This document shows, in pieces, positions 15,413-62,696 of a DNA stretch of 64,000 bases. Origin of the DNA: Diphasiastrum complanatum. Lineage: Eukaryota; Streptophyta; Lycopodiopsida; Lycopodiales; Lycopodiaceae. A program made the translations under genes and the position numbers. The notes under the pieces are model-generated. The model did no database searches, had not been told where the DNA came from, and saw nothing but the letters and a program-made list of their open reading frames with translations. Each line of letters begins with the position of its first letter. Within the stretch, counting starts at the first letter, position 1. The DNA lies in assembly GCA_029204225.1 (NCBI GenBank), contig CM055100.1, forward strand, positions 9,386,481 through 9,450,480. Reading direction: 5' to 3'.

Positions 15413-15791
15413 CTATCTTCTTGCAAATGGATCCAAAAGATATGCATTTTCCTTTTCTCCACATAATTCTACGTAAGTTGCATACAAAGCAAAATGAGCT
15501 GATCGGAGAATAGCATTCTCGAATCCATAACTTGAAATCTTGAGTACAATTGAGCGTTTAACAAAAATTATTTTATGTGGTTTAATGAACTTATGACCAC
15601 CTAAGAAATGAGACAATGCCTTCACTGCCATGATAATTGTTTCGCCTTGAGCACTGAACTTCGAATGGGCAACACAATCTCATGGTTTTTGAAAAATTTG
15701 AGATAATTTCCAAGGTCGCTGTCCTTGTTGAATTTGTCTGAGTAGGTCCGAAAGCCACCTCGTCAAATGAAAAATTCGTCAATAAGAATGG
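15413..15791 (-). pseudogene. Gene X terminal exon, left-arm copy, broken
   Basis: Minus-strand relic of the exon that is intact at 28768-29151. It shares MAVKALSHFLGGHKF and ENAYLLDPFARR at the C-terminus. The left copy has TGA where the right copy has CGA (Arg) and has lost one T in a T-run, shifting the frame. Homology starts four bases inside the exon, so the upstream intron and exon were not included in the duplicated segment or were lost. Function unknown. Confidence 0.6.
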
Positions 15792-26440: not shown

Positions 26441-26551
<111 letters not shown>

Positions 26552-29151: not shown

Positions 29152-29474
29152 TTCCTCCACGACAACAAAATGAAACTGGTACTAGAAAAAAAAAAAAGAT
29201 CGCAAGGAGATATAGATATATTCAATCAGTTGGAAATGTATTTTCTCCCAGAATGAATTACCAATATATAGTACAATGTCAATCTACCTTCCTTGATGTA
29301 TAAATTTGCATGCCTTTCTAAACTTGATGTAATTTGTAGATTTTGTTTGATGTCATATTTGTGCTTGTCGATAGAACCATTGAATTAGTTGAAAGATATA
29401 TATGTGTCTACCATTGAGGCCACCATGCTGTGTGATTTTATGAAATGTTGCTCTTGCTTGCCAATGAGATTTTT

Positions 29475-33236: not shown

Positions 33237-34452
33237 TGTAGCGCAGGCATCCCAAAGGGAGCCGGAAACCACGACTTAGCTTCCCCGCCTTCAACTCTTG
33301 TCATCCAAACCCACTTGACATACAAGCAGCCAACTCGCCAACAACGATCAGACTTAACCAACTTGAAGTTCCGAAAACCAACATTGAGATCCAACCTGGC
33401 GCCATGCCAGATCGGGGGTCCCGATGTGGGTGACTTCCCTCCAAGCAAGCCGCCGACATACATCAAACTTAACCAACTCGAAGCTTCGTTACAAATGAGT
33501 AACATCCATTCCAAGCAAGCGGTCTGACTTACATCAGACTTAACCAACTGAAAGCTTCGTCACGAGCGCTGGAAGCCAACCTGGCGCCATGCCAGACTGG
33601 ACAGCCATAAAGAGGTAACGTCCACCCAAGCAAGCCATCCAACTCAGCCGACAGGTTAGAGCCCGTTCCCCAAGAGCTTAACCCATTCACGTTCATACAA
33701 GGAACACTCAGAACCACAAGCCGCGACAGATATGGAAACAACCAGTTCCTGGACCAAATGGTCCCGACAGCATACCGCTGGCGCCAGGACCGAATGGTCC
33801 CGACGGCATACCGCTGGCGTCCCGGGATACGACCCTCAGCTATGTGCCAAGTTAAAAATTTTGAAAGCGGCCTTACAACTGGCGCTTTTACCGAACACTG
33901 AAACCCAGAAGGTAATTAGAGTCAATTTGAGGAAAATCCCGCTTTATTGATAAATCTGAGAAGGTTACATTTCAAGTGTGTGACCGACCCTAGTCTCTGG
34001 GGCGCTAGCATGCCAAGGCGAGAGCCATGACAACATTCCAGCAAGGGAGGCTGAGACTTGGTTGGAGCTCGCCCTGAGTCGCAACCCGCACTCCCCTATA
34101 GTATTGGTGTGATCCGGCACCCCCCCTCATACCAAGCACTCTACCCAAGCTGGTAAAGCACGTTTTTCTCTCTCTAGAATTTTCTCTTTCTAGAAAGTCA
34201 TTTTCTCTCTCTAGATTTTATTGATCCCCAGGCTTCCTTTAATCATGCCTAGATCGTGTGAGGTGATTGCACATCGATCTGAGCTCTCTGGACTCCGCTA
34301 GAACCGATCAAAGATTTTCAGCCATAGGAACTTGGCGCCGGCTGGATTCTGGTCACAGTGGCGCCGGGAGCAGCAGGGGCGCTGCTGGCGCCGGGGACAT
34401 AGCTGGTGCCGATGGCGCCAGAAGTAAAGCTTGTAAAGGTAGCTGTACAACA
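33237..34452 (-). repeat. LARD LTR (5' LTR in element orientation)
   Basis: 1,216 bp copy. It includes the roughly 76-bp segment (about 34050-34128) absent from the other LTR. Confidence 0.93.
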
Positions 34453-34657
34453 TTTTTCCATCCCTTGTGATGACCATATACCCAAATTTCCATGACTTTT
34501 AGCTAAGGATATGGAATGGTGTCATAATATGTGCTGCCAATCATTTCTATCAATAGATAACTTTCAAAAACAAAATAAAATGGTAACTTGATATCTGTTT
34601 TTAAATTATTACCATATAATATGTAATATGATCCGCTCTTTCTGGAGCAGTCGCAAG

Positions 34658-35333
34658 TCATTGTGTTCTTTCCTGATCAAAATCTTGAGTGGCAGCTATG
34701 ATGTCTTTCCAAACTGAGTAACGCGTCTTAGATGGCTTTCCTGAATGGTTAGATAAAAATCTTCGCATCTTTACTCCGCCAATGTTTGGCTTGCAAGGTA
34801 AATTTCCTTTTTCTCCCAAAAGCTTAAGGTCCTTTCGTATTTTAACATGTCCCTTTATGGAGACTTGCTTTAGACAGAACATCTTCTAATCTATAAATAG
34901 CCTCCTTGGAAAATGATTCTGGCTTTGTGTTCCAAGCATATAATATGTGACAATACACAAGCTTTTTTATTATTCTAACCTCATCACGGAGAGTGAAAAT
35001 ATGTATGTTTTGTAGAGGAATTGGCAGAACAGGTTTCCAATTTGGATTCTCTTTGTCTCTTGTTATTCTTGTATCCTTGGTCGTGTCATTTGATGATTTC
35101 ATATAATATAAACATGGATTTTTGGAGGTTGCTCCATGGGAAACATTGAACATACATTTTAAAGTTTCCAAATCACCAGCCAAATGCCACTCTACCTTGA
35201 AGTCTCCTATTCCAGGTACATTGAAAAGTTTTCCATCCATATGCTCTTTGATAATACTGGGATATGTTGTTTTGCTAAACACCCATGACATAATGTCATG
35301 ATCTTCACAAAAGCCATATACTTCCAAGTACAA
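34658..35333 (-). pseudogene. Gene Y, unrecognised protein, right-arm copy
   Basis: Minus-strand counterpart of 14215-14886. The first frame (35333-34842) carries GDFKVEWHLAGDL, NVSHGATSKNPCLYYM and the Arg/Ile-rich stretch, then diverges after SFSKEAIYRLEDV. An overlapping second frame (34882-34658) continues to a C-terminus near TRYSVWKDIIAATQDFDQ. One frameshift separates them, at a point that differs from the left copy, so the ancestral gene was probably a single frame. It starts inside the Copia LTR fragment, has no ATG of its own, and converges on gene X. Family unknown; transposase-like only by general impression. Confidence 0.5.
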
Positions 35334-35594
35334 CAGCTTTCCTAATTAGGTGACAAACATTCAATGTAATTAATACACGGATGAAGTCTACAAATAGATT
35401 GTCCAAGCACAAATTAGGGGTTGCTCCATCCATGAGACGTATTATTTGAGCCTCCCAATTATGCCATCAATTGTTGGTTGTAATTGCTATTTGTATTGTG
35501 CTTCAGTGTAATATAGCAACAGCACATTTTTATTTGTGTACAACGTAGATGAATGCTTGTTGTGATTGAATGCCCTTTCATTGTTGTTTGATCG
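35305..35594 (+). repeat. Copia LTR fragment inside the right arm
   Basis: Inverted counterpart of 13946-14242, same family as the LTR at 21047-21335. Confidence 0.7.
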
Positions 35595-35840
35595 CGCTTG
35601 TTTACTCACTCTGATCAGAACACAGGCGTCCACGACTCCTCAGTTTCAAATCAGACGATGGTTGTCTTTGACGACTCGCGATATCATACTGCTCTTCCAT
35701 TTACTTAAGAACTATACTTCACATTGAATATGATTTCAATAGTACCACACACAAACCATCTCTAATCTCTTCGGTGGACTGTACTCTTGTTTTTAGAGTA
35801 TGAATTATTTTTAAGATCTTGTTGGGCAATCAGAACGCAT

Positions 35841-37008
35841 AAAGCTATGATCATCTTTAGCATAAGCTGTCTATTAGACTATTTTTGCACCTAGCAGCCG
35901 ATTAGAACGGGAGAGTTGTTCAGCAATATTCCTGCTCTCTTCTCCATTCTCGTTCTTCCTATCTCCCTTGCCCCATCAACCTGGACCCTCTTATAACCCT
36001 CTCTATTAATGTCTCAAAAACAAGTTCAACTTTGGTGGGCGTCAGCCTCGGTATACTCCTCAAACTAGATTCAGTATTCCGATGTATGTTCCGAGGACTT
36101 CTAGTGGATTTATAACCCTCTCTATAAATGTTTCAAAACCAAGTTCAAATTTGGTAGGCTTATTCCGAGGCCAAACACCGGACCCGAGGCTCGAGCATTC
36201 CGCTCTCCCCCCCCCCCCCCCCCCCGCAACTCATTTTAAAAACTCTCTTTCAAAGAAACGCTCAAAAAAAGCCTTGGAAATCGCCCGTCCTCTTGTAGTG
36301 TGATAAGCCAAAATTAAGATGAGAATTTACATCCCATACACCCACGTGAAGGAGGAGTAGATATCTATTCTATGATATGCCCCTTAGGTATTGCTTTCAC
36401 ACATAGATGGGTGAGCTCATGGTAAAAAAGAAACCCTGATAAGAATGTCTTTTTTCCAGATGCCCAAGTCCTCGAAATGCATTGACCAGTCTTTGATTTT
36501 CACATAGGCTGCATGAAGGAAAAATTTAAACATCATATAATATTTATATAAAAAGCTCGGTTGTAAGTAATCACATGTATGGTAGACCCTTAATTGAGGT
36601 GGAAAGCAATCAAAGACAAATGATTGGACCAAAATCAAAAACTGTTCTTGTTTGGTTTAATCCATGTAAAAGCAAAATTCAGCCCACTGTTCCTTTATAC
36701 ACCATATCTGACCATCACATCTAAAACCCTCCAACATCACTCATTGTTGTTTCATTAAATTTTCAATATTCTTGATAACCCACTAGGCTGAAAATCTTCT
36801 TTAAAGGGAAGAGAAACAGATCAATGAGCTAGAACTGTACTAGTTTGAACTTGTAGCATTTTTTGAACCTGCAACTAGTAATAGGAGTGTTGGCATGAAC
36901 ACATCAACATCAATCCAATTTGAAAAGGAACATTCACTAATTTAACAATACTTAGCTAACGGTTTTCTGAAATATATAAGTGCTATTTCAATAAATGAAT
37001 AAAGCGTT
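35841..37008. other. Sequence present only in the right arm
   Basis: About 1.4 kb (to roughly 37231, including the PLATZ C-terminus) absent from the left arm; the left joins at 13727-13735. Because it contains the end of the PLATZ frame, a deletion in the left arm is more likely than an insertion here. It includes a 119-bp tandem duplication (about 35992 and 36111, TATAACCCTCTCTAT) and a C-run at 36207-36225. Confidence 0.7.
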
Positions 37009-37928
37009 TTACATTGCACTTATGGTTGATTGATTCACTGATGTTGTTGCCACCTCTAGTTTAGTCTGTATGGCACTCTTGGTCAAATCCATCTTAAAGG
37101 GACCCATTGATTGACATTTCCAACTTGCTACCGTATAAGCAGCTTGCATGGTCTGAAAATTGTCATGCTCAAGTGCAAAGGGACCGGTTCTCCTTTTCTT
37201 CTTTTCACTTTGAGGCCAGCTTAGTATGAAAGCCTCCTGGCAATCATTTTCCCTTTCTTTTGTCGACATACATGCGGATGTCGATGGAAGATTTATATCA
37301 TCTAGGAGAGAGGTTAATATAATTGCTGCGTGTGTAGCCAGTACTGGACTGAGAGATAATTTTTGATACTTGGAAGCTGGGTTGCGAATTGCAATACGTT
37401 TGCATGAGATGGAGCAAAAACGGTGAACATGATCTATTATTTTTCTATCACAGATCTCACATGAAGGTACATCCGACCTTTTGGTGGCATTGATCTTAGA
37501 GGGTGGACGACTTTGAAGAAAGAGATGATCACTACCGTTGAAGGAGTAGACCTGGATCCCCGAAATATCCAATAAGTTTTGAACATCACGCACACGTACT
37601 GCATCCTTGCGAGAAGCTTTCCTGACCCGGATGCACGTATGATTCGCCGTTGTTGATGATGGTCTATGATCGTAGTGGATGGTGCGTAAACAAAAAGGTC
37701 CTTTCCGCAGCTGATGCAAAAATAAACTTCATGTGCATTCGTACCACATGAGCATTTTCCATGGCACGAAGTGAAATATGTAGCTCTCAAAAAATCATGG
37801 AGCCATGGAGGTTCTGGAAAGCATTGCTCCTCTACAACCCTCTTCAAAGGTAAATCATGAATCTCTGTTGTTTTCTCAGTAGCCTTCTGCTGCTGACGTT
37901 GCTCCACCATTTCCACGTCCCCAAACAT
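37009..37928 (-). pseudogene. PLATZ: PLATZ zinc-binding transcription factor, right copy, one frameshift
   Basis: The longer copy. From the ATG at 37928 the frame is identical in translation to the left copy through CISCGK (about 37700). The rest of the domain lies one frame back and stays open to TAA at 37011-37009, with a Lys/Arg-rich C-terminus (SEKKKRRTGPF, possible nuclear signal). Apart from the single 1-base shift, the whole would be about 306 residues, somewhat longer than usual PLATZ proteins. Zinc-ligand candidates include CHGKCSCG, CISC, CEICDRK and FCSISCK. The identical shift in both arms means it predates the duplication, or was copied by conversion, or is a true feature of the gene. 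No GT-AG intron or slippery heptamer explains it. Confidence 0.83.
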
Positions 37929-40023
37929 GAAATAATCAAGTCCTAAAAAAATCAATAATGTGCAGATCTAGTGAGTTCTTTGTTTAGATGTACAATGTTG
38001 TAACTGGCCAACATGTTTTACCCCTACTTATCAAAAGCAATGCAACCCAACACAACTTACTCTACACAATTTCAATAACAACATTTTAAATTTACATATT
38101 TCTTTACATTAAAAGATTGTGGGTTTGAAGGGTGTATTTCTGATATTTCTTAATGCTCCCAATCTTTGTACACGAATTCATGCGGCCAGAATAGCACTGA
38201 TCAGTTGTTACACGTAGTATGTTCTGATTCTTTTTTCAAACTGAACGAGCCCAACGTTAGGGTTTTCGAAAACTACCAACCTATACCTCAGATAGAGCTC
38301 AGTATCTGAATAACAATAAATATGTCTCATAGATTTCTATCGGAATCTCTGAATTTCAATGGATTTGTTAAAATTCAGTGATCACGAAGCCATCACCGAT
38401 TGATTGCTAGAGTGGAAGAGGAGTTTTTCCCAGAATTAGCTGGAAAATGGACTAGTTGAGAGATGTCCCCCCCACGTGAAAAGGTCATTCTCACAAACTC
38501 AAAGGTAAACCATGTCAAATACTGGAATGAATGCTGGATAACTGAGTAGCCACGTGACTAAACCATGAAGGGGGGCTAATGGAGAAATCGTAGAAGCTAG
38601 CCAGTCAGCCAGCCAATCCAACAGAACAATTCACCTCAAACCTCACAGCATCTTGCTGCACGGTAACCCCATGCAGCAGGGCAAGATGTAACAGTTAGAC
38701 AAGCGCGCCATGCAGACAGTTACATTTTCTAAGCGATTAATTATCTGTCAAGCACAAATGATTCGGGCCTTGCCACTGCATCAAAGATCTACTACCTCAA
38801 TTACCGAATACAAACATTGCGAAAATGATAAGACATACATCAGAAAAGGAAATTATACTAGCTCCACCTGTTTGGGACATCGTATCAGAAGTCGGGCTCA
38901 AACAAAGATCATCCTTTTGCAATTCCGTTGATGAAGAAGAAGCCACAGCCATGCCGCATCCCCCGAGAAGAATCTCAAGACACCGAAATGGAATGAATGA
39001 AGCCAATATATTAATTAAGATCAGTGACAATCATTCAACAGTGGTAGCTACAATGAGGCAGCTGGTATCGCATGTATGTGAATGAGTCACTCTTTGAAAT
39101 AAAAAGAAAAAGCAGCAGCAGCAGCAACGTACAACCCACAAAATAAAATGAGAACTAGAACTAGAATTGTTGTTGCTTTTTTAAGTGCGTGTGCGTGTAC
39201 GTGCGCTCTCCTTTGCTTTTTGCTTTGCTTTTGAGGCTTTTGCTATTTTTTCACGGAAGAAACCAAGGAATGCTACTACTTTTGGTATAATTTGTGAGCG
39301 TAGAACAAAATAAAACCGAAAAGAGAACGTGAATGCATGCATGGCTGGGAGTTTAGGACCATAACATTCACGCTCATATGATTTTTGGGCCTTTTCAAAC
39401 TTGGTAAATACATAGTGCCTTGTTGTGAGAGCATTAGACTTCTTGAAGCTTCTAAAAGTGGAGTTCAAGTGATAAGAATCATGCCCCCCCTTGGGTTCCA
39501 ACACCTTCACCTCAAAATATCATCAAAAAGATTCTGGTAGCAAATTATAAGTGGCCCATTTTGTGCTTTTCAACGGTGTAAACATTTGACAAAATTATGC
39601 AAGATTGAAATTTTGAGCTTCCTCAGATACTATAAGAATGGCTCTCTCCATTGTCAATATAGCACGACTTCTTAGGAGATGAGGACGAACCATCTGTATT
39701 TTATGTGTGCCAACTTTGAGTATCGCAAGAATGGCGGAAAAATTATGAAAATCCTTACACTCGCTTGCAACTTATAGTGATAGGCTAGACATGTTTCTCA
39801 ATGTATGAATGAGCTTTTCTATAAACATATGCGGCTAAGATCGATAATATAAATTTAATCATCTATAACCAAAGTGATTGTACATGACAAAATATATACA
39901 ATGATAGACAACTTCACTCTGAGATCCAAGTAGGTCTTGGTCATATCAATACTACAACAGTCCATACACTATACTTCACACATGTGGAATCAAGTACAAC
40001 AAGAAAATATGCATTCTACGTGT
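37929..40023 (-). other. PLATZ upstream region, right arm
   Basis: Reverse complement of 10690-13021. Near identity with the left arm at about 37929-38700, including both CACGTG boxes. Beyond about 39080 divergence grows, with an insertion of roughly 115 bp at 39380-39495 relative to the left arm. Confidence 0.6.
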
Positions 40024-44315: not shown

Positions 44316-46060
44316 CTGCATGGAATAAAGGTATCATCAAAAAATAGAAATTTTGACCAAAAATGGTAACTTGGGACAAAAAGGAAAACTCGTCCAGTTC
44401 ACTTTTGATCTGCTTAAAGACGACATATACAAGCTTATAAAACAAGGATATGGGATGACCTAATGTGTTCAAAATTGACATGATCTTGAAGGATCGACGC
44501 ATATAATGCCCACAAATCACGTGTACTACCATCATCTGAAACCAATCCCAGGGCCTCGATCTGTATTATGTAAACAGCAATCTTGAAGCCATCTAAGACT
44601 TGGAACTTCTAGAAACCCATAACCACAAATAGGCAGACAGAATAACCCAAGAGGTTTGAGGCTTCTGTGGACGGAATTGTCAAACTACTACACAGAATCC
44701 AAAGTGAGAATGATTGCATTTAATAATGGTTAACGTGTCACTACACTCTGGTATCATGGCCCTCTGCACCACCGAAGAAGAGACCAGAGGAATTTCCTGA
44801 TGTCATCAAAGGAGAAAATAGATTATGGCACATGCACCAGGTATCAAGAAGAGAATCCTAGGTGAATTTAGTTAGCATTCAGTGATGCACCTCATAAACA
44901 ACCTCAAATCTTTCCTGACAGTATAAGTCAAAATGAATGATTGGAATCTATGAGATGGAATTGATGTTATCCGTAGTTTGGAGCAACCCTGTATGCCTGT
45001 TCTTCTGAAGTTAGCCCATTTGATTTTGTTCAGTGCATTTGGTAGGGAAAGACTATATGGCATCGTCCAGTCTAAGGGTTGCCCATCCTACAACTCTTGC
45101 CATTAGGTGATCCCAGGCCAACTCATTTAACATTCAGTGATGCACCTCACGAAGAACCTCCAGTGCTCCTCACAGTAAAATTAAACAACTTGGAATTGAC
45201 ATTATCCATGTTCATATTTAAGCCTGTGTGTCTGTTATTTTAAAGCTACCCCATTGAATTTGCTGAAGACATGCTCATGTGGCAATAATAAGCATTAAGC
45301 ATGAACAGCAACTAGAGAGACTCTCAGACACACTACAAACAGCTTATGCAGAATGATATATAAGGTGTACATCACAGAAGTAAGATCCTAGTAACAGATC
45401 TTGATTGATACACAAATTACAGTTAGCTATAGCAAATCTGAATGCATAGATAATCATCATTTAGCGTCATTTGTGAATTCAAGCCCTAACAAACGAACTG
45501 AAAACAGATCTTCAAAAGATACCCTCTGTCATATAGAAGATATTGTTGCCAAACCCCACAGCCACAAATTGCATGAAACAACATGCAAGAGCTGTTCTTG
45601 ACATGATTTGAAATTTATCTAGTTCTCAAGTGCTTATCCTCAAAAAAGGCGAAGCCCATCTATGTTTCACAGATAATGATCAGATATGTGTTCAATCAAG
45701 TTAAGAAGACTAATCTTCATAAACACAGAAAGGGATTTTGGGAAGCCGTAAACATGTCTAACAAATTGTTTCCTAAAGATCCATTAGAACAATGCAACCA
45801 ATAATTCAAACTGGATCATTGGAAAGTACCTCCTGCTGACCGGCAACTATGCGAGTGTACTTCTTGTCATGACTGTGTAGATAAGTGCCAGTGTCAAGAT
45901 GAATGAGCCTGACCTTCTGATCCCTCATCCAGACATTTCCCTTTCCCTCAATCTCCAACCTGATGCAGAATTTACAAGGTCAAAATATCTGAACTGCTAC
46001 AAGACAACCAGTAAACGTATAGCAAAGAAAAGAACATTTCTATACCAAAACCTTTACCAA

Positions 46061-46097
<37 letters not shown>

Positions 46098-46463
46098 CCA
46101 AATGCATGAAAGCAACTAGCTTTGCCACTTCTTGGTGATGCAGAAGCTGCGCATCTCCATAGCTTGCTGCAAAAAATTTTCCTCAAATCTGAATCTGCTG
46201 CGCACTTTTTTTTAGCTGAGATCTAACCGCAGTTATATACCAGTCTGACCATCATTAACATGCAAGAGTGTGTTGCTGGTGGGCCATCATGCCAGTTGCC
46301 AGTTTTCAGAGGCTTTCAGATAGCCGCTGCATCTTTTCATATAGTGGATACATGTGTTTTCAATGCATGTGGGCAAAAACAATTCTGCAGCATGTAGGAT
46401 GGGCGCAACATATTGCAGCACTGCCCACTCTGGTGGCTGGCCACATTGCATGTGGCCAGTGCA

Positions 46464-46511
<48 letters not shown>

Positions 46512-47849
46512 GGATCTGGGCGCCAGCGGATCTCCATGGCCTAGCGATGGCTGTCCTCCATCGCCCTTCCTCCATTGCACCTGCTCCATCTGCTGGCGGA
46601 TCTGCCGGCCTCCATCACATTTCTGCATTGCACCTGTCCTCCATCGCTGATCTGCTGGCTCCATCGCTGTCTTCCATCGCACCTGCCATCCCTCATCGCT
46701 GATCTGCTGGATCCCTCATAATGCCACGTCGCAAAGGAGTCGTTGCCACCACTTTTGAACCATCCTCCGTCTCCAACAATGCTTCAACATCTTCCTTACA
46801 GCCAGATCCACCCACCCCTCCTCCTATGCCCATTGTGGTTCCTATCTCTCCATGAAACCCTATTCTTGACAATAGTGAAACTACTGTAGCTATTCCCTTG
46901 ACTCCAAACACTCCAGAAGCACCGGTTTCTCTCCCTCCATATGCATTGGTCAAACTTCTTCGGGATGATCAACTCTGTCTATTTGAATACCTCAACAATC
47001 ACAGAGAGTAACTGGCTTCTCATGATTCTCTGCTTCTAGTGGTGCAATCGCATCTTCAGAAGTTGGATACTTCCATTCAAGAACTCAAGAACGAAGTTAC
47101 AGCTATAAAAAGTGAAGCCTCTTTCCAAATCGCTACTTCGGCAAAAATCCAGCAACTCGAAAATCAGGTGGAACAACACCATACGGCTGTCCAGTCATGG
47201 GCAGATGTGCTTAAAGGTTCGTCTTCTATTATCTCTCCACCTCCGCCTTCACCTTCGCTTATCTCAGCCACATTCACTGAGAGTCGTCTGTGAGAGCATA
47301 AAGCTCTCAATGTTCGTGTTAGAGGTATTTCGAACTCTCAAAATGCTAAGGTGAGAAGTTTCTGGAAGGAAATCTTCAACACCATAGCAAAGGAATGGAA
47401 ACTGCCTAGCGACCTAAGAAGGACCTGGATACTCGTCATGCGCTTCACATCAGTGTCTCACCGGCGTGAAGTTCTAGGGAAGAGATTCAAATTGCGGGAA
47501 ACCAAAATCTACCTGGACGAAGACCTTACCTTCATCCAAGTTCAAGAACGTAAGAAGGCAAGATAAGAAGCTCTATCAACTGGCAAACAACTTACCTATC
47601 GTGATGGTATTATCAGATTGGTAGATCAAAAGCCTATAGTTAATGATAATAGAGAAATGAAGAGATGTCCAGTTGAACATGTAAATGGTCTACGTACCAT
47701 ATAATCCTGACTATATGACTCTCTTCCTAGTTAGTTTGTTTTTTTCTGCTTTGACGGCACTGATCCGTCTTGTGTCCAACTTAGTTGATGTACTTGTTCG
47801 TCTTATATGCCTTTGGCATGGAAAAGACGTTAATAAAGCTTTCTTCTTT

Positions 47850-47946
<97 letters not shown>

Positions 47947-50180
47947 ACACGCATAACATTACAATTTGAAATAATTTAAGAATCATTATTTGTACCAATG
48001 TTTCCCACTTTTATAGATCAGCCTTTTAAGTGGTTAAGAATCAAGCCCTCTCAGGAATCGGATTTAAGGATTTTGAAATAGTTACAGAAAATTAAATAAA
48101 AATTGATCATGCAACCTCTGGTTTACAATTACTCTAATTTAGTGAGATGATCAATCATTGAGAATCAATACCCATATGATAATCTTTCAATTTGTTGATA
48201 TCTTGCAAAGTACATCATAATAACATAGGCGAGAGTCTGTTGCTAGTCTCCACGCAATCATCTGCTGCATATGAATGGCATATGAATGTCTCTCCAAGAC
48301 TCACATATTCAAGCAGCCTAAACCCCAAGTCTCTCGTGTATTGGACCAAATGTTCCATACAGCATAGGAAACGTCTGGTCAACTCCTTTTACTAACTAAT
48401 TGCAAGCATGTCAACACTAGGGACCTTGTATTATCATTCTAAAATCTTTTCAGCACATGCCTGTGAACAAGCCATTTTAACAATTGATATTGACATTTTT
48501 ATAAGTTTACAAAGGATTAGTAGTATGAAACATTGTACAACATAATCTCCATAAGAGTGATAGCACAACCAAGCTAAATGTCATAGATAAAAAAAAAATT
48601 CTATTGTATTTTAATGAAAGTGTACTTGAAAGAGCTACGAGTGATGAAGCCTATAATTCTTAGATGGTAGTAGTTACAATCAAGAGCAAGTAGCACCAAA
48701 AGATCAAGCCAAAACAACGTTTGCCATTGAATGGGTCTATAAGGTCATGCCATTTGAAATATGCAATGCACCAAGCTCCTTCCAGCACATCATGCAATGT
48801 GCATTCAACGAGTAGCATCAAAACTTTTGAAAAAGATTTTTGGATAGTCTTTGCATACAATCATCACGCATAAGCCACCTAGTATGTCTCGAAATATTGG
48901 TCCAATGTAGGAAGTATGGACTATCCCTAAACCTGACAAAATACAAAATCTGGGTTACGAATAGAGCAGTATTAGCTGACATAGTCTCATGTCGAGAGAT
49001 AGCTAAAGGTCTTCAAGAATTTGTCATTGCCTTCTTGCCACCACCAAGCATTGTTAGAGGAATCTATAGTTTCATGGGAAATGCTAACTACTACCACAAT
49101 TTATTTCAGATTTCCCCATAACTTCCCCGTTTCATGGGATTTCTCGCGAAGACATGATATGTCAGTTGTATGCTATGTCTGAGATAGAGATGAAAGAGTA
49201 TTTTATATCCCAATTCACATCGTACTCCAAAATCAAAGGTCAATACTCTGGCATATTTTGAGACCAACCTGTTATATTGTACTATAAGGATCAAAGATCT
49301 ATATAGTATAAAACTATTTTAGAGAGAGAATGTGAGATGCCGTAAAAAATGTCACGCTGTGCCGTCGAAAATGTCATGTTTTTGCAAAGGCAAAAACTAA
49401 AAAAACGTTTTAAAAAAAATGGTAAAAAACAACAGTCAGAACCGAAATCCTTTTGAATGCAGTTTAAAGAAGAATTTCATTTTGTTACAGAGTAGGCAAC
49501 AAGCAACAAGACTTCTTTCTTGAGATCATCGATAGACGAATCCAGTTTCTGAAGATGCGATTGCACAACATGGATCGCTTCAAGAGAAAGTTTTTCTCGA
49601 TGGTTGTTGAGATATTCATATGAACGTAACTGATTTGCACGGATAACGGAGATCATATACGATGGAGGCAAAAGTGATTCCTCTTCTGGGGTATTCGGGG
49701 TCAAAGGATGGGCTATAGTGGATTCACTATTAGCAATAGGGTTTGACGAAGAGATGGCAATTGCAAATGGTAGAGGAGGAGAAGGCGAAGATGGAGAAGC
49801 TGGCCGAGGTGTAGCAGGTGCAGGTTAAGGCGTAGGTGTAGATGGCCCCCCTTTTCGATTTTTTACCATTGCTTCTCTGTTCGCTGGGTTGATCTACTCC
49901 ACTGGAGAGGAGCGGTGCTGCTCCACTAGAAGGGAGCGATGGCGCTCAACTGGAGAGGAGCGATGGAGCTCATTTGGGAAGGAGTGATGGGGCTCAGCTG
50001 GGAAGGAGGGATGGTGCTCAGTTGTAGAGGAGTGTGCTCTTGGCAGGCAGCTATCATTGGCATAGCAGAAGGGCGTGGGCAGCGATGGAGGGAGCCATAA
50101 GACCAGCAACACCATTAGCGGGCCAACGCCATCAGACCAGCGCGGATCAGTGCCATCAGACCAGCGCCATGAGAGAGCGA

Positions 50181-50224
<44 letters not shown>

Positions 50225-51272
50225 TATGATTGTTTGTGGGTACATAAGATTGATGAGTATATTTCAAGTATGTTGGAACTACAGGAGTGTAAGAACGTCT
50301 CCAAATAGTCTTGCCTATATACTGTATTAGCAAGCGGTAAAAGATATGCAATGAAATCACTAAGTGCCATTTACATATTATAAAACCAACTATCTAGTAT
50401 CAAAATATGTTGAGGTGCAAAAAATTTGCAAATATCTAGTGAGCATTTGACGGCTTTGTCCTTGCAAGTAAATCGAAGCTTCTTCTCATTTGACTACTTC
50501 AGCTAAGATCCAACAGCTTGAAAGTCAAGGGAACAACATCATACCGTTGTCTGATCTTGGGCAAGTGTGCTTAAAGGTTCTAATACTGCTGTTCTACCAC
50601 CTCCATCTTCGTTTATCTCAGCTACGTTCACCAAAAGCCGTTTGCGAGAGCAAAAGGCTCTTAATGTCCGGGTCAGAGGTCTTACAAACTCCCATGATGT
50701 TGTTGGTGAAGCTAAGAAGTTTCTTGAAGAAAATCTTCAACACCACTAGAAAGATATGGACACTGCATGGCGTCCTAAGAAGGATCCAGACACTCTTGTC
50801 ATACGCTTTGCATCTGCAACTGGTCGTCGTGAAGTGCTAGGGAAGAGATCTACACTGCGGGTACCACGATATACCTAGATGAAGACCTTACTTTCATTCA
50901 TGTTCAAGAATGGAAAAAGGCAAAGCAGGAGGCTCTAACGAATGGAGAACAGATGATTACGGGGATGGTATCATTCGATTTGTAGATATTAAACCTGTTG
51001 CTATTAATGAGATATCTGAGATTGTCCAGAGTTCAGAGTTAGATTGAGAGTTAGAGCACTGAAGAGATGCCCAGTTGAATTTGTAAATGGTCTTCGTACC
51101 ATATAATCCTGGACATTATTCTCTTCTTAGCTAGTTTGTTTTTAGTCATGTTGTTTTGACGTCATTGCTTCGTCTTGGTGCCACCCTATCTGAGGTACTT
51201 GTTCGTCTAACACGCCTTTGGAAAAGACGTTAATAAAGCTCCCTCTCTCCCTCCCCCCCCCCCTCCCCCTCC

Positions 51273-51336
<64 letters not shown>

Positions 51337-54001
51337 AAGACCCAAGCAATTATAGAAAACAGGTTGGCCAACATACCTCCAATTATCCCCTGTATCAGAT
51401 TGATCATTGCCTCCAAATGCACTAACCTGCACCAATGAGAAGCCACTAAGAATTTGGAAAAATGGTTGTGAGCTTTCGCTACTTAACAAAGAATAATGGC
51501 ACTTCTTACCATCAAGGCTTCTTAGACCAACCCAAAGGCAAAGTCTAGTACACTTTTAACAAAGTTATGAAAAATAATGCCCCTGATGATTGACAAATAT
51601 ATCCATTCAAAACTTCATGTGATTTGGTGCTACTCGTGTCCATAAGATAAAGCACCATGCACCTCAGAGCTCAATTAAATGATGCCTACATAAAAGTAAA
51701 AAGGATTTTCATAAGGTAAATTCAAAAAGAGCTCACACCAATTTCACAAAGCATCTCAACATAAATTTATCATTTCCCTAGTTATAAATTCATGTATACA
51801 GGTAACTATGACTTGGTAACCAAAACATGGCCTGCACAATGGTGTCTTCGAAGACCGAAAAAGGGACATTTGCTACGATGCTAGAAGATAGGCGAAACAA
51901 CCTATGAGACAAATGGTTGCTGCAGATCATAGAAAGGCTTCTTGTCTATCATTCGGGATGTTGAAACCCCCAAAAAGCAGCACCAAAGAAACTACTCATT
52001 TAAGAATAATGGTGTATAACTCTTGACGAATGTGACGTTCACCAATCCCAAGTACACGTTTCATACTTGCCTCTGAATGACACCTACATGCAACTGCTTA
52101 CTGCTCATCAACAACAAGATCGTGCTCCTTGAATAGCACGATCAAGAAGCATCCTGCAATTCAAATGTCTATCTTTAACAAGAAAAAATGTTGAACCCTC
52201 TCTAACACCTTGTACGAATCCCAAAGGTAATGCATGCCTCCTTACCCACAAGCTGAGACCAGTTTCTTGATATCTATACAGGTGACATTATTATGCCTAC
52301 AAGCAAAATAAAAGAGCATAAAGGTGTCACACTGATCTATATTTATTAGCCATCAAAGTTTTTTTTTTGAAGGCAGCATAGCATACAAAGAACCTTCATA
52401 GGTCTTGATAGTAGATTTGCATCAACCAAGAAGTCATGCTTCAGAATATGCATCAACCAATTTATAACGCCCCACAATCCATAGGTTTTATTGGATTTTT
52501 TCTTATGAACCTGTGGGGAGATGGTATAGAACCTGTGGGGAGTGCTGTCATGAACTTTTTGTTCTGATCTAATTCTACCAAGCCCTTTTCTACCTTAGGT
52601 TGGGGTCCAAAGGAAAGAAAGCAGCTTGATAAATCATCGTCTAAGCTTCCATAATCAATATCTGTAGCTGCTAGAATAATAATCTGTCAAATGAAATCAT
52701 CTGTGAATATGTGTATCATCTGTGAAATCATCTGTATTGTCTGTCTCATATGTGAAATCTGTGAATTTGGTAAGTAGTTAATTGATTAATTAATTAATTA
52801 TTTAGATGAACCGTACCACTGTTCAAGGAACCGTAGTAAGGTTCCTTCCACGGTGCCCAGGACCCACAGTTCTGGGAAATGTGGGTTCTATGGAATTTGG
52901 TAATTAATTAATCAATTAATTGATTATTTATTTATTTAATTAAATAAAGGAACCGTACTACGGTTCAAGGAACCGCGGTACGGTTCCTTCCACGGTCCCC
53001 AGGACCCACGGTTCTGGGAACCGTTGGTTCTATGAACATGATAAACGCCTTCTGACTTCACTAGAACAGAATCAGGGAGAAGGAGATAAATACCTCATAA
53101 TTGCCAGATATTGGAGATTGATGCAGGTGACTGTGTAGCCATCTATGTGTTCTCATGTGCTGAAGCCGAAAAATTGTTCCACTCAGAATCTCATCCCCCT
53201 GATTGACTGAAGCTCCTGATGGGGGCCTCACAATCTACAAAACAAATTGCTCAAACAATCTATTTAAAGCACGTAAACTCGAAAGGTAAACTATATTGGT
53301 CAACAACTACCGGTGAAATGCATCAAAATGCTTCAAAGACTATTATAAGGCCTTCTTGCAAGAATGAACCTTTACAGCATGTAACGCTCATGAAAAACCA
53401 TATATTCCTACCAAGGTGAGTAGAAAACAAGTCTTAGTATTTAAGCCCACTAGCTACAATAAAGAGAGACTTACCCAATAGCTATTTGCATCCTCCACGC
53501 CAGGAAAGCCAGTCACTGATTGCTGGCCACTGCCAGAACCATAAGGGACCTCATGTGAGTGGAGACGGAACTTGGTTCGATCATGCTGAAGTTTTATTAC
53601 ACTTCCAAAAGTAACCTGCAAAAGGCCAGAATATTTCAACAAAGTGCCCAATCACAGCTTTTGTCAGTTTGTAACTATAAGTTCAGCATGCAGACTATGT
53701 AGGGCAGCTAGGGCGTCGCAATCAAGAGGCCGTTAGTAAAAGACATTGCTAATCACAATTTAGGTTTCTCCATTTACCTCACCTTCATAGAATCTCAACA
53801 TTCATCTTATGTATCACAGAACTCATAAATCCCTAAAACTGTAGCAGAAATAGAAATAGGATAGGGATGAATAATGAAACAAACCTCTCTGCCCTCTGTC
53901 ACGTGATTGACCGTGGCGGAGGCGCTAGAAACTTCTTCCACCGAAACTCCAAAAATAAAAAACAGCAGTGAGCCGATTCCCAAAATTCCCATGGCGGCCA
54001 T
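44223..54001 (-). CDS. SDF2: SDF2-like ER-lumen MIR-domain protein, six exons
   Basis: SDF2 is a secretory-pathway protein with three MIR motifs; in Arabidopsis it works in the ER with the Hsp70 BiP and co-chaperone ERdj3B in glycoprotein and immune-receptor quality control. Exons: 54001-53885, 53615-53475, 53234-53094, 51426-51377, 45959-45830, 44315-44223. All junctions are GT-AG and phases match (only the exon 4/5 junction splits a codon, Arg). The product is 223 aa, close to the usual length: signal peptide MAAMGILGIGSLLFFIFG, then VTFGSVIKLQHD, KFRLHSHEVPYGSGSGQQSV, GFPGV, FRLQHMRTHRWLHSHLHQSP, SDTGDNW, YLHSHDKKYTR and DNLWLAAEGVYF, ending FKSS. The ATG at 54001 is the first after a TATA-like site near 54410. 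The frame is open upstream, but without another ATG until past that site. It looks intact. Confidence 0.93.
45830..45959 (-). CDS. SDF2: SDF2 exon 5 (third MIR motif)
   Basis: 130 nt between GCATCAG and GTACTT. Contains VRLIHLDTGTYLHSHDKKY. Confidence 0.94.
46065..46095. repeat. (CT)n microsatellite in SDF2 intron 4
   Basis: 31-bp CT run just upstream of exon 5 in genomic order. Confidence 0.95.
46466..47946 (+). mobile_element. LINE-like ORF1-only element A, bounded by (CT)n on both sides
   Basis: A unit of about 1.34 kb sits between (CT)n arrays 46466-46509 and 47853-47932 (the latter passing into CG/CA repeats). The 5' part (46510-46720) is made of short CCATCGC-type repeats. From ATG 46721 a frame, broken by TGA, TAA and TGA, gives a Pro-rich N-terminus, a coiled coil (VQSHLQKLDTSIQELKNEV) and, from ALNVRVRGI to KIYLDEDLTFIQ, an RRM-like segment resembling LINE ORF1 proteins. 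The 3' end is a shared motif GACGTTAATAAAGCT followed by CT-rich tail. No ORF2 (endonuclease/RT) is present, so it is non-autonomous. Confidence 0.65.
48690..49121 (+). pseudogene. Ty3/Gypsy reverse transcriptase fragment in SDF2 intron 4
   Basis: The first part reads YKVMPFEICNAPSSFQHIM, the next part RKYGLSLNLTKYKIWV and PPPSIVRGIYSFMGNANYY, all Gypsy RT landmarks in the right order. The catalytic YVDD-like site has decayed to FLDS, and a frameshift and stops break the frame. No LTR nearby. Confidence 0.85.
49293..49437 (+). repeat. Dispersed repeat, copy 1
   Basis: CTATATAGTATAAAACTATTTTAGAGAG, then AAAATGTCACGCT, TTTGCAAAG, CTAAAAAAACGTTT and a terminal A-rich tract. The same order of words occurs at 61398-61535. 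Probably a short non-autonomous element; class not determined. Confidence 0.55.
49480..50222 (-). mobile_element. LINE-like ORF1-only element B, 5' part, inverted
   Basis: Minus strand: a (GA/CT)n array (50222-50172), a 5' part built of CCATCGCTCC-like repeats, then from ATG 49869 a Pro-rich N-terminus, NNHREKLS and VQSHLQKLDSSIDDLKKEV. It stops abruptly near 49480, at the codon position where element C on the plus strand begins. Same family as element A. Confidence 0.65.
50463..51336 (+). mobile_element. LINE-like ORF1-only element C, 3' part, with CT tail
   Basis: Begins within the ORF1 coiled coil (TSAKIQQLES) and continues through ALNVRVRGLTN and DTLVIRFASATGRREVLGKR with frameshifts. 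It ends GACGTTAATAAAGCT followed by C-rich and (CT)n (51283-51317) and (CA)n tails, exactly as element A. Together B and C appear to be one element split by an inversion. Confidence 0.65.
51377..51426 (-). CDS. SDF2: SDF2 exon 4 (micro-exon, 50 nt)
   Basis: VSAFGGNDQSDTGDNW plus two bases of an Arg codon, between GGTGCAG and GTATGT. Confidence 0.93.
52809..53034. repeat. Paired hairpin cassettes in SDF2 intron 3
   Basis: Two copies of an 84-bp cassette, 142 bp apart (52809-52892 and 52951-53034). Each carries AACCGTAC.AC.GTTCAAGG, then GGAACCG..GTA.GGTTCC, then CCACGGT.CCCAGGACCCAC. The internal words are palindromic (GGAACCGCGGTACGGTTCC). They are separated by TTAATTAA-rich DNA. Confidence 0.85.
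53094..53234 (-). CDS. SDF2: SDF2 exon 3 (second MIR motif)
   Basis: 47 codons between TTTGTAG and GTATTT. Contains LQHMRTHRWLHSHLH. Confidence 0.95.
53475..53615 (-). CDS. SDF2: SDF2 exon 2 (first MIR motif)
   Basis: 47 codons between TTTTGCAG and GTAAGT. Contains LHSHEVPYGSGSGQQ, a hallmark of SDF2. Confidence 0.95.
53885..54001 (-). CDS. SDF2: SDF2 exon 1 (signal peptide)
   Basis: 39 codons from ATG to a GTTTGT donor. A hydrophobic core of about 14 residues is followed by Ser/Ala-rich cleavage-site-like sequence. Confidence 0.85.
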
Positions 54002-56759: not shown

Positions 56760-57795
56760 TGTGAAAATTGTCAACATTTCCTTGACTAGTTTTAGGCCAA
56801 ATTTGGTAATTGTGTCACATAGTTTTGGATTTAGCCTTTTACACATGTGGAAGAGGTCTAGATACTTTTATTTTAGTATTTCATATTGAAGAAGTCTCAA
56901 ACTTCAAGACCTTCGAAATGACACCAAAATCATGTCATTTGGACATATAGGCCAAATTTGGCTATTCTAGGCTAGTGGTGCCCTAAAATTGGGTTCTAAG
57001 TTCTAGAGAGAGGAGAGAGAGCCATCTCTCTCACCTATATTAGGCTGAATTTCGTGGAGAAACAGGTTGAAGAAAACTCAGTTGGATGAAAGATCCCCCA
57101 CAGATTGTCAACAATCTTTTGCATAAATTTTGGTGTACTTTGTTGAGCATGTAAGTAACTCTCCTTATGTAATTTGATTGGAGCATTTGTTGGAAGGCTT
57201 TAGCCGTTATGCAAGTGTGTTTTTCAGGTTCTTAACAGGTTGAGGAACATTATCATGTGAAGTGGTCTTAGATCTACATCTAAACATCAAGATCTGACAA
57301 GCTAGTGAAACTAGTCTTGTGATTCACTAAGTGTGCTCTTTCATTCACTTATAAAGCTAGTATTTATCACTTGCTGGAGTTTATAAACTTTTAAAAGTGT
57401 GGTTTACATGTGGTTTTACAGGTTGAATCAATATCTTAGTGTGTTGATCATATGTTGATCAAGTTTGTTCAATTCTAGGTATTCTTGGCAGCCTAGTCTT
57501 GTGTATTTTCTAAGAATGCAAGTAACTCTTCAAACCATAACTTAATTTGGTCACTTGCTGAAAAGTTTGAGAGCTTAAGCAAGAGTGTGTTCAGGTTGGT
57601 TTGAGTTTGTAATCCATTCTTAGTGTGTGCAAAGTGTTGCATGTGTTTCAATCTTCTTTTCTATGCTTGGAAACCAGTCAAAGTTCAAGATAGAAGTGTT
57701 TTAGGGTCCTAGATCTTCTGAGATCTCCTTATCCATCATTTGTTGAGAGAAAAGTGAGTGCTAGGTGCATTAGGACATAACCTAAAAGTTGAAGA
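56759..57795 (+). other. Probable LTR/leader of the 57.8-kb Copia element
   Basis: Non-coding. Begins with TG at a sharp break in gag homology. No clear primer-binding site or 3' LTR was found, so the LTR status is unconfirmed. Confidence 0.35.
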
Positions 57796-60577
57796 ATGAT
57801 TATATTCATGCCTTCCAATGGTGGGATCGTGTTAGAAACTAATGATAGGTTGAGTTTATCAAACTACTCTACTTGGAAAGTGTGGATGGAGTCCTTACTT
57901 GAGTTGAATGAACTCATGGACATAGTTGCAGGAATTGAAGAGAGACCACCCACAGTTCAAGAGCAACAAAGGTCTGATAAGAAGGCAAAAAGGGCTCTTC
58001 ATATCATTAATATAAATGTTACCAATGAACTTCTCAAGGAAGTTGGTAAGAGTCAAAGTGCAAGTGAGGCATGGAATGCCTTGAAGAAGCTCTTTGAATC
58101 AAAGTCCACATCTAGGGTATTGACCCTAAGGAGGAAAATATTTTCTAGTAGGCAAACCGAGGGAGAAAGTGCTCATGCATTTGTCTTGAGGGTTAAGTCC
58201 TTAAGTGATGATCTAGCATGCATTGATGAAAGCATAAAAGATGGTGAAATAGTCCAGGTTATGTTGAATGGTTTGCTAGATGAACATGCTAACCTTGTGC
58301 AAAGTTTTGCCATTCAAAGAGTCTTGCCAAGTGTGGTTGACTTGCAAGAAATCTTATTGGCTGAAGAACATAGGTTGCAATCAAAGCTTGATGGTGCATC
58401 CTTGCAAGGAGGAGGTGAAGAGGCTTTCTTCACAAAAGGCAAAGTCAAAGGAAAAGGTAAAGGCAAAGGGAAATGGTCCAAAGGTGGTAATTTGAATCAT
58501 GATGATCACTCTTCCTCTTCCTCTTCTACTAAGAAAGATAAGTCAAAGTTCAAGTGCTTTTATTGTGGGATTAAAGGTCATTTTGCTAATGAATGTCGTA
58601 AGAAGAAAAGAGAGGAAGGTGAGAGGCAAGGAAATCTAGCAATAGATGAAGAAGAGCATATCATTTGTGAAACTCTTGTTATGACTTCAAGTTTGCTTGC
58701 AAATATAGATGGGAATGATCCTTGGTGGACTGATAGTGGTGCCTCATCTCACATGACAAGACATAAGAAATACTTTTCATCCTTATTATCTTATGAGGGA
58801 GAGCAACATCGTCTATACTGCAAATGATAGTCAATGTGACATCAAAGGAATACGCCTAATTCCTATTTCTCTTTCAACAAATAGAAAAGCTAATCTTGAA
58901 AATGTATTGTACATTCCTTCAATCACTAAGAACCTGCTTAGCATTAGTCAAATGATTGACAAGGGGCTTGATGTTGAGTTCATTGGAGATGCTTGTTTGA
59001 TAAGTAAATGTGGATCCTTGATTGCTCAAGAAAGGAGGCATGGGAAGCTTTTCAAACTGAATGCATGTGTGATCTCTACGCATGAAGGATGTATGGCTAG
59101 GGAGCAATTGACAAACCAAGAAGTTTGGCATAAGAGGTTGGGCCATCCCAACTTCAAATCTTTGGAGGTAATGGCAAAGAAAGAGCACGTTCTTGGTCTC
59201 CCTAAAAGTCTTGTTGCAAACAATAGTGTTTGTGAACATTGTGCCTTGTCCAAATCTCATAGACTTGCTTATTCTAGATCTACTTCTAGATCTAAATAAG
59301 TTTTTCAACTTGTGCATTCTGATGTTCATTCTTCTAGTATAACTAGCAATGGTGGCGCAAAGATGTATGCAACTTCCATCGATGACTTTAGTAGGTATAC
59401 TTGGGTCTATCTTCTTAAAGGCAAGGATGAAGTGTTTGCTGCATTTGTCAAGTTCAAGAATGAAATGAAAAACCAATTCAATACAAAGATCAAATGCTTA
59501 AGATCAGATAATGGAGGGGAATACACTTCAACTAAGTTCAAATATTTTTGCATAGCACATGGGATTAAGAGGGGATTACTCTAGTCCTAGGACTCCACAA
59601 CAAAATGGAGTGGCCAAGAGGAAGAATAGAACCCTTTGTGAATGTGCCAAGGCAATGAGACTACTTGCAAATCTTCCTAAGTCTTTTTGGGGGGGAGCTT
59701 TAGCATGTGCTAACTATCTTTAAAACAGGTGGACAAGTGCTTACTTGTATTGTAAAACTCCTTTTGAGTTCCTTTATGGTACAAGGCCAAGTGTCAAGCA
59801 TTGTAGGATCTTTGGTTGTACTTATTTTGTCAACATCACTCTTGATGATAGAACTAAAGAAGATCCTTCATCAAGGAAGGGCATATTTGTTGGCTATAGT
59901 TAAATAAGAAGACTTACAAGGTTTACATTCCTTCAACAAAAAAAGTTCTCAGTTCTAGAGATGTCATCTTTGAAGAAGACAATGTACCAAAGAAAGGTGA
60001 TGTTGATGAAACTAACAATCTTCATGTTGTTTCTCCTAACTTTCTTGATGGTGATGGATGTATGGATGATGATGGTGGAAATGCCTCTCCAAGTCAAGTT
60101 CCAAGAAGATCCTCAAGTCAAAGTGAAAAGCCAAAAAGGCTTACATATGATGAGAAGGGTAAGCAAGTTGTGGAAGGTATAAACTTGGCTTTACTCACAT
60201 GTTTTGGTACATCTTCTTGTATAGATGATGTTATGCATATGGATGGTTGTCTTCATGAAATGGATGTCATTTATGGTTCTGGAAAACAGGGTTTTGTCAA
60301 TGGTTTTGATGGTCAAAAGGAAGATCAAGAGGTTGATCTTAATGTGCTTCATCAACACCAATTGGAAATTGGTAATTTGAAGCTAGTCAAGAGCATCAAC
60401 GAAGAATCAAATGGCCAAGGCACTAAGGATATGTTTTTGCAAGTTATTGAAGACTCAAGTAAAGGCAAAGTAACAACAAGGATGTCTTGTTCAAACCTAC
60501 TTTACTCATCTAACTTTATTTTTTTGAGCTATGTTATGTCAATGTGTGGAAATTGTCAAAATTTGGTGAATCTATGA
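57796..60577 (+). pseudogene. Ty1/Copia gag-protease-integrase without RT
   Basis: Gag (57796-58800) has NYSTWKVWMESLL, a Lys-rich basic tract, and the zinc knuckle CFYCGIKGHFANEC. Protease shows WWTDSGASSHM near 58725. After a frameshift, the GAG-pre-integrase runs to 59300 (VWHKRLGHPNF, CEHCALSKSH). Integrase follows, with VHSDVHS, IDDFSRYTWVYLLKG, LRSDNGGEY and PQQNGVAKRKNR. The catalytic Glu is replaced by Lys in the last motif. More breaks occur at 59300, 59584, 59720 and 59905. The linker RLTYDEK (60142) should lead into RT, but instead a 140-codon unrelated open stretch follows. Same family as 23705-25480. Confidence 0.85.
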
Positions 60578-61397: not shown

Positions 61398-61535
61398 TCT
61401 ATATAGTATAGAACTATTTTAGAGAGTGTGTGTATTTTTGCCGCCAAAAATGTCACGCTCTACCCGCAAAAAATGTCAGTCATTTGCAAAGATAAGATCT
61501 AAAAAAACATTTGAAAAAAAATGTGTGTAAAAAAC
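61398..61535 (+). repeat. Dispersed repeat, copy 2
   Basis: Same order of words as 49293-49437, starting CTATATAGTATAGAACTATTTTAGAGAG. Confidence 0.55.
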
Positions 61536-61601
61536 CACACATACAAGCCTTTTTTTTCTTTTTTCTTTTTGGGACACACATACACACATTTCAAAAAAAA
61601 T

Positions 61602-61614
61602 CCCCCCCCCCCCC

Positions 61615-61675
<61 letters not shown>
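61602..61675. repeat. C24 run fused to (CT)25 microsatellite
   Basis: C homopolymer 61602-61625 passes directly into CT repeats to 61675, at the edge of the LRR relic. Confidence 0.97.
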
Positions 61676-61677
<2 letters not shown>

Positions 61678-62320
61678 GACATCACTGATCCTGCTGGGTG
61701 CTCGATGGCTAGCCATGAGGCTGTGTGCATTTGCAGGTGCGATGATCATTATCGTGTTCAAAGCCGTAAGATTTCCGAGCGATGGAGGCAAGCTACCTGA
61801 GAGGTTATTGTAGTTGCAATGCAGTCCGAGATATGGAGGCAAGATACCTGAGAGATTATTGTTGCTTGCAATGAAGGACTGTAGATGAGAAGGACTGCAA
61901 CTGAGATGCACTGTCGTTGCCACCCCACACGTCCGAGAGAACTCATGTGAGTTGATTATTCGATAGATTAAGTATAGTGAGAGATGGGTTGGTGGCGCAT
62001 TATGCAGGTATGGATCCAGTTAGGTTGTTGAAGCTCAAATCTACCAAGAAGAGCTTAGAGGAGGCTGTCAGCCCCGCAGGGATCGATCCCACCAAGCTGT
62101 TACTATTCGGATCCACAGCTTGAAGTACAGGTGAGTTCCCAATGCCTGGAGGGATGGTCCCAGAGAGATGGTTTGTGAACAAGTACAAACCATGGAGATT
62201 AGGAAGGACAACTAAAAACACTGGAATGGTTCCTCTGATTCTATTTGTGTGAAGATTGAGCTTGCAAAGCTGAGTTAACTGTCCCACCTGCTCAAGAAAA
62301 TCAGCAACAAAAACTCTCAT
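61676..62320 (-). pseudogene. LRR receptor-type fragment
   Basis: Minus strand: after ...TTGAGCAG (possible splice acceptor near 62290) come repeats LNLHTNRIRGTIP, LYLFTNHLSGTIPPGIGN and VDLSFNNLTGSIP, the plant LRR-kinase consensus. A stop follows near 62000. Further repeats (NNNLSGILPP, NNLSGSLPPSLGNLTAL) occur at about 61890-61760 in other frames. No signal peptide, membrane segment or kinase domain. It ends at the C/CT array, so it is a broken fragment. Confidence 0.82.
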
Positions 62321-62696
62321 GGCAGTGCATGCAGATCACACAATGCAGACTGCAGCATAGGTACATCAATGGCATTTAAGGCATTCTATGCTAGAAGCAG
62401 GAGGTGCTACATATCTAGCAAAAAAAGGTTATTTAATGTGCTACAGTTCATGGGTCTTCTTTGTGTGGCAAATATGAAAGCCTTCTTGAATGCTACGTTC
62501 CTCTTGGTTGAGATACATTTAAGAGAAAACAAAAAAGGATATATTATGTTGGTTTGAGTGTGGATCTTAATCTTCTAGATTTCTTTTGTCTTTCACTGTG
62601 CAAGAACGTGCAGGAGTGCGATCTCTAATCATGACAAAGATCATAGTAGCTCGGGAAATACGTCTCAATAAGGAATGGTAGATCGGTATAGGAAAC
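62321..62696. other. Intergenic, no gene seen
   Basis: No supported feature between the LRR relic and the GTPase-like segment. Confidence 0.35.

Follow-up and report, generated by a model that had tools for sequence, protein, structure and literature searches.

The 64,000-nucleotide stretch of Diphasiastrum complanatum contig CM055100.1 analyzed here, referred to below as the window, holds within a single intron two copies of a repeat family that resembles a long interspersed nuclear element (LINE) reduced to its first open reading frame (ORF1). The intron is 5.4 kb long (about 45960-51377) and belongs to a gene on the minus strand; the sense strand of both copies is opposite to that of the gene. 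As judged from its sequence, this is probably a plant gene of the SDF2-like type. The exon at about 45840-45960 aligns with an SDF2-like protein of known structure, 3mal (E 6e-20); the exon at about 51378-51426 continues this protein by eye, and the intron is bounded by splice-like motifs.

Both copies are old and broken, and only the first, copy A (46466-47932, plus strand), looks complete. It opens with a pure (TC)22 array (46466-46509), followed by a body (46510-47850) that comprises a GC-rich, repetitive 5' region, a broken ORF1, a 3' untranslated region (3' UTR) that contains GACGTTAATAAAGCT, and a short run of pyrimidines. The exact start of this body is defined by the CT array, not by homology. 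ORF1 occupies 46721-47701, or 327 codons counted from the first ATG of the frame; it is damaged by four in-frame stops and by an out-of-frame patch (about 47348-47432) caused by indels of 7 and 2 nucleotides relative to element C, described below. A conserved stub after ORF1 (47655-47704, KRCPVE(H/F)VNGLRTI and a stop) is identical to C at 44 of 50 nucleotides, and the 3' UTR (47705-47840), which in this family includes GGAAAAGACGTTAATAAAGCT, at 105 of 129 aligned nucleotides. The copy ends in (TC)40 (47853-47932), and (GC)7ACACGC follows.

The second copy lies in two pieces. Element B (49511-50170, minus strand) is its inverted 5' half, with a firm match to positions 309-588 of A and a leader that is weakly alike. 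A CT array of the same orientation stands on the 5' side of B (50171-50222, minus strand) and is slightly impure beside the element. Element C (50463-51240, plus strand) is the 3' half, corresponding to positions of about 599-1331 of A, and is followed by an impure pyrimidine run, (CT)17 and (CA)n (51241-51317, plus strand) with no adjoining A tail. Between the halves lies segment X (50223-50462), which is unlike the left flank of A and is probably the original 5' flank, inverted along with B. The 5' region of the second copy contains two kinds of 24-bp tandem repeats (49897-50032 and 50118-50167), and that of copy A carries a 52-bp repeat instead. A dispersed repeat that begins TCTATATAGTATA occurs at 49300-49435 and 61400-61539 (78% identical), one of its copies being directly to the left of B; its start is, we presume, reminiscent of a Helitron 5' end.

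An earlier note on this DNA had described A, B and C as three elements that share an ORF1. BLAST alignments confirm that the family is real: A and C are 71% identical over 784 columns (E 1e-106), and A and B are 68% identical over 284 columns (E 1e-18). B corresponds to 309-588 of A on the minus strand and C to 605-1331 on the plus strand; local alignment extends the C match back to about position 599, and the two parts do not overlap, leaving a gap of about 10-16 nucleotides in A. Because these complementary, non-overlapping parts of A meet at one internal point, B and C are the halves of one copy with an inverted 5' half, and the count of three separate elements is ruled out. Local-alignment scores of 339 (A with B) and 780 (A with C) were obtained against best shuffled scores of 97 and 87 (50 mononucleotide shuffles per pair), values inflated by the CT arrays that both pairs contain. 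Searches of the window for further copies were negative, both with nhmmer and half-element profiles, to which A, B and C match by construction, and with phmmer, run on six frames with a piece of A.

ORF1 was described by the same note as Pro-rich, coiled-coil and RRM-like in all three elements. This holds for A as a whole, but B has the Pro-rich and coiled-coil part and C the part resembling an RRM and C-terminal domain (CTD), all of them broken. The segment order, Pro-rich, coiled coil and RRM/CTD-like, was read by eye, and the RRM-like label likewise comes from a reading of the sequence. This order fits a type II ORF1 (coiled coil, one RRM, CTD) by eye, with no profile match. The CCHC zinc knuckle (CX2CX4HX4C) is absent from all six frames of A, B and C, and structure models of ORF1 were too poor for fold searches (pLDDT 42 and 56). 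As the earlier note had held, no second frame (ORF2, encoding reverse transcriptase and endonuclease) was seen in either copy, in the list of window ORFs of at least 110 amino acids or in the sense-frame translations. Both copies have ORF1 only, as in HAL1-type elements. The VNGLRTI of the stub presumably resembles the start of an AP endonuclease and may be the remnant start of an ORF2.

The reading frame bears the mark of purifying selection. We compared A with C and B over 213 shared codons, of which 6 with a stop in either copy were dropped, leaving 207; the part of ORF1 before 46835, the patch at 47339-47432 where A is out of frame, and the end after 47640 were excluded. Differences at codon positions 1, 2 and 3 numbered 44, 26 and 93. 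The synonymous divergence (dS) was 1.09 and the nonsynonymous divergence (dN) 0.186, for a dN/dS of 0.171 (bootstrap 0.10-0.26), which varied only from 0.170 to 0.171 across four alignment settings. None of 300 neutral simulations reached a value this low, their minimum being 0.44, and shifted frames gave 0.96 and 1.77, or about 0.95 and 1.8 when the alignment settings were varied. With 7 gaps set aside, A and C are unlike at 24 of 129 sites of the 3' UTR; for synonymous sites the figure is 85 of 148 (Fisher p 3e-11). The stub differs at 6 of 50 sites compared with the same synonymous sites (p 9e-9). Since neutral decay after insertion is capped by the dN of 0.186, about 0.9 or more of the dS of 1.09 would have arisen under selection. 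ORF1 and the 3' end were thus conserved in two long-separated lineages. Both lineages share the same layout from ORF1 to the 3' UTR, without ORF2.

The 3' ends of A and C agree closely. An exact 15-mer, GACGTTAATAAAGCT, is found at 47826 and 51226, its sole exact matches in the window, and the common end lies three nucleotides after AATAAA. Directly behind AATAAAGCT the pyrimidine is impure in both copies (TTTCTTCTTTTCTTC in one and CCCTCTCTCCCTCC in the other). Neither copy has a poly(A) tail: runs of four or more A are absent from 47835-47990, after copy A, and the sole such run in 51235-51380 sits at 51356, past the CA repeat. Each 3' array is succeeded by a purine-C dinucleotide repeat, (GC)7 in A and (CA)n in C, a pattern seen in compound arrays. 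Folding gave no consistent hairpin, A folding better than most shuffles (z -2.2) and C not (z 0.5), and we do not claim one. Rfam yielded no match at the gathering score, and no tRNA was found. The exact 15-mer also occurs in 114 viral stretches; the ten BLAST matches inspected consist of 20-24 nucleotides around it.

Outside the arrays, the flanks of the two copies are unrelated (left of A against X, p 0.16; right of A against right of C, p 0.3). Of 21 flank pairs, one self-overlapping pair was dropped, and among the 20 compared, three gave uncorrected shuffle p values of 0.02-0.035, which we take as chance: left of A with left of the array at 46066, X with flank L, and X with right of 46066.

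CT arrays adjoin both 3' ends and stand upstream of both ORF1s. The earlier note was correct on these junctions: A has CT on both sides, the arrays there being pure, A and C end in the same sequence followed by CT, and B has at its 5' end an array that reads (GA)n on the plus strand, which is CT on B's own 5' side. The repeat thus flanks two of two copies, with 3' ends set by homology and 5' ends by CT alone. The window contains ten arrays of (CT/GA)12 or longer. When arrays were placed at random over the window, the two homology-set 3' ends both came within 50 nucleotides of one in 119 of 200,000 placements; when an array within 450 nucleotides upstream of the firm homology was demanded of both copies in addition, the counts per 200,000 were 0 for the window and 117 for placement inside the intron, the 50- and 450-nucleotide limits having been chosen after the data were seen. 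Variants of the test in which the 5' ends were put where the CT starts yielded 0 and 13 of 200,000, which overstates the case. On the plus strand nine of the ten read CT, and array orientation alone therefore says little. The single array that reads GA is that of the inverted half B, which is consistent with the CT having been taken along in the inversion.

The suggestion that the family accounts for the many long CT arrays was not borne out: beside the six other long arrays, no family 3' end scored above the 95% shuffle level. Scores for the 5' end exceeded the shuffle level beside two of them, 46066 (11 against 10) and 61625 (14 against 10), but this test is weak, as the 5' edge of B itself does no more than equal its shuffle level (11 against 11). 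Of the six, only the array at 26445 adjoins a purine-C repeat, on its other side. Between a (TC)15 array and the (TC)22 that opens copy A lies a 370-bp segment (46096-46465); near both of its ends it carries TGGCCA(A/C)ATGCA, in inverted orientation by eye. From these letters it is perhaps another insertion into the same CT array.

A repetitive 5' region had also been described as shared. The leaders are loosely alike when taken as a whole, 46510-46720 and the leader of B giving a score that only 1 of 300 dinucleotide shuffles equalled, but their first 131 nucleotides are not (73 of 300 shuffles were as good). The match to B was equalled by 22 of 300 shuffles for 46721-46834 and by none of 300 for 46835-47097. 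Each 5' end can be placed only where leader-like sequence gives way to CT. The leader of A was matched in its similarity to 61675-61990 by 2 of 300 shuffles and that of B by 26 of 300; a decayed 5' piece of the family is possible there, and we do not claim it.

The idea of an ORF1-only, LINE-like family beside CT repeats is strengthened by the selection on ORF1 and by the conserved, AATAAA-bearing 3' end. The explanation that we tentatively favor, while rating it somewhat short of probable, is a non-autonomous, HAL1-like LINE family that inserted in CT microsatellites and was primed by their GA strand. Its RNA would consist of the repetitive 5' leader, ORF1 as the single frame, and the short, constrained 3' UTR, and its mobilization in trans would depend on ORF2 protein supplied by an autonomous LINE not seen here. 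The insertion sites of both copies would have been pre-existing CT microsatellites. Nicking of the purine strand of the array would free a (GA)n 3' end that could anneal to the RNA where it becomes CU-rich, directly behind AAUAAAGCU. Reverse transcription would start at this GA primer, so that no poly(A) would be copied and CT would remain on both sides of the insert. At some later time, the 5' half of the second copy would have been inverted together with about 240 bp of its flank. A further proposal, that this is a long-lived, ORF1-only plant LINE lineage under purifying selection on its own ORF1 and using CT microsatellites as both landing site and primer, so that poly(A) is bypassed, we consider rather doubtful as a whole.

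Parts of this scheme have precedents. Micron of rice, a short, non-coding element, targets microsatellites in (TA)n, and Kibi, of the Tx1 clade, is a LINE specific for (TC)n. The present family is, like Micron, a plant element flanked by microsatellites, but it contains a coding frame. Its copies lie inside a dinucleotide array, as do those of Togen and of some HERO families. The named families of Togen, which are (TG)n-specific, are all from fish, and the Togen and HERO clades code for their own reverse transcriptase and endonuclease (PMC4640811), neither of which was seen here. HAL1 (half-L1) of mammals has ORF1 and no ORF2 and depends on the reverse transcriptase and endonuclease of full LINEs (PMC5753468, PMC5322556). 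The present family is likewise ORF1-only and would share the dependency; HAL1, however, has a poly(A) tail and target-site duplications (PMC5322556), whereas here there is no A tail and CT stands on both sides. Of 233 L1 families of flowering plants, 224 have (A)n at the 3' end and 9 have no terminal repeat; a repeat other than (A)n is found in none (PMC3747384, Table 3). A 2022 review likewise gives (A)n for plant L1 (PMC9033089). The ORF1 of plant L1 is of type I with a CCHC zinc knuckle (PMC4120745). Elements of that clade share with the present family an AATAAA near the 3' end and, by eye, the position of a LINE-like ORF1, but here (A)n and the zinc knuckle are both lacking. For plant LINEs with microsatellite targets, or plant LINEs with ORF1 only, we found nothing matching in the literature covered, which left out many subscription papers.

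Several observations weigh against the explanation we favor. The sample is two copies in one intron. ORF1 found no relative in Pfam or the PDB, its weak matches, several of them to coiled-coil families, falling below the curated cut-offs; no autonomous element with ORF2 was seen in the window ORF list; and 31 pattern matches in IMG/VR and 204 in GTDB genomes yielded no confirmed relative. When the five arrays of the intron were shuffled within it, both 3' ends came to lie within 50 nucleotides of CT in 2,615 of 200,000 trials. As the first 131 nucleotides of A and B are unlike, neither 5' end is fixed independently of CT. A search for target-site duplications gave nothing convincing, and such a duplication is unreadable inside CT. 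The TTTCTTCTTTTCTTC that precedes the pure 3' array of A is absent from its 5' flank. Finally, the arrays are purer than copies this old would preserve, so their present lengths reflect later slippage.

The strongest competitor, which we nevertheless hold unlikely, is that no ORF1-only lineage exists and that each copy descends from an autonomous LINE with both ORFs, either by way of a spliced ORF1 RNA or by a deletion that recurred, with selection acting in the parent. The conserved stub would suit such an origin if, as we assume, VNGLRTI resembles the start of an AP endonuclease, and a dN/dS of 0.17 is attainable by an autonomous LINE. The same ORF2-less layout is present, however, in two lineages at a dS of about 1, so that the loss would have to recur or the splicing be conserved, and no such parent was seen in the window ORF list.

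Less likely still, the CT could belong to the element itself, as a CU-rich leader and a CU tail of the RNA later lengthened by slippage, the insertion sites not having been CT arrays. Both 3' ends do enter impure pyrimidine directly after AATAAAGCT, CT lies upstream of the leader in both copies, and short terminal repeats are known from other LINE groups, such as green-algal L1 and plant RTE (PMC3747384, Table 3). This would require CT at both ends of the RNA, and the purine-C repeats after the 3' arrays fit a pre-existing compound array better; none of the 233 flowering-plant L1 families in the same table ends in a repeat other than (A)n. Two copies with CT-defined 5' ends do not decide between a CT tail and a CT target, and no 5'-truncated copy, which would distinguish them, is recognizable here.

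For the second copy, an improbable alternative to later inversion is twin priming during insertion. Twin-primed LINE insertions are known for mammalian L1, and an inverted 5' half followed by a direct 3' half is their layout. Here, however, the halves are separated by the roughly 240 bp of X, CT is missing from the left junction at 49510 but present at the inner end of B, and the only shared word found is a 7-mer away from the tail. That the copies are no LINE at all, and instead derive as retrocopies or duplicates from a host gene for a Pro-rich, coiled-coil protein, with recombination or repair between CT arrays having spread them, is very unlikely. In its favor, ORF1 matched no LINE ORF1 in Pfam or the PDB, and CT arrays are common (ten of at least 12 units in 64 kb), but the shared 3' end three nucleotides after AATAAA, the constrained 3' UTR, the segment order as in a LINE ORF1 by eye, and the unrelated flanks all speak against it.

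The remainder of the window contains other repeats and genes. Copia-type gag-pol remnants were identified by Pfam at 57793-59299 and 20306-20944; like the SDF2-like gene, they point to a plant host. Fragments of a leucine-rich repeat gene lie at 61591-62335 on the minus strand, their reading frame entering (C)n(CT)25. A large inverted duplication has arms at 10690-15791 and 28772-40023, with pieces 93-100% complementary and 1,407 nucleotides at 100% between 12321-13727 and 37223-38629; a gene present in both arms we take to be of the PLATZ type. Near-identical tandem duplications of 252 bp (31966-32480) and 106 bp (23968-24182) were also found.

If the proposed lineage is real, a parasite LINE that keeps its ORF1 for so long (without use of a clock, a dS of about 1) must benefit from producing an RNA-binding protein of its own, a point relevant to the question of whether ORF1 acts in cis or in trans. 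Priming at CT repeats without poly(A) would, for a plant LINE, be a type absent from the 2013 survey of 233 flowering-plant L1 families, and microsatellites would be linked to retrotransposition in plants.

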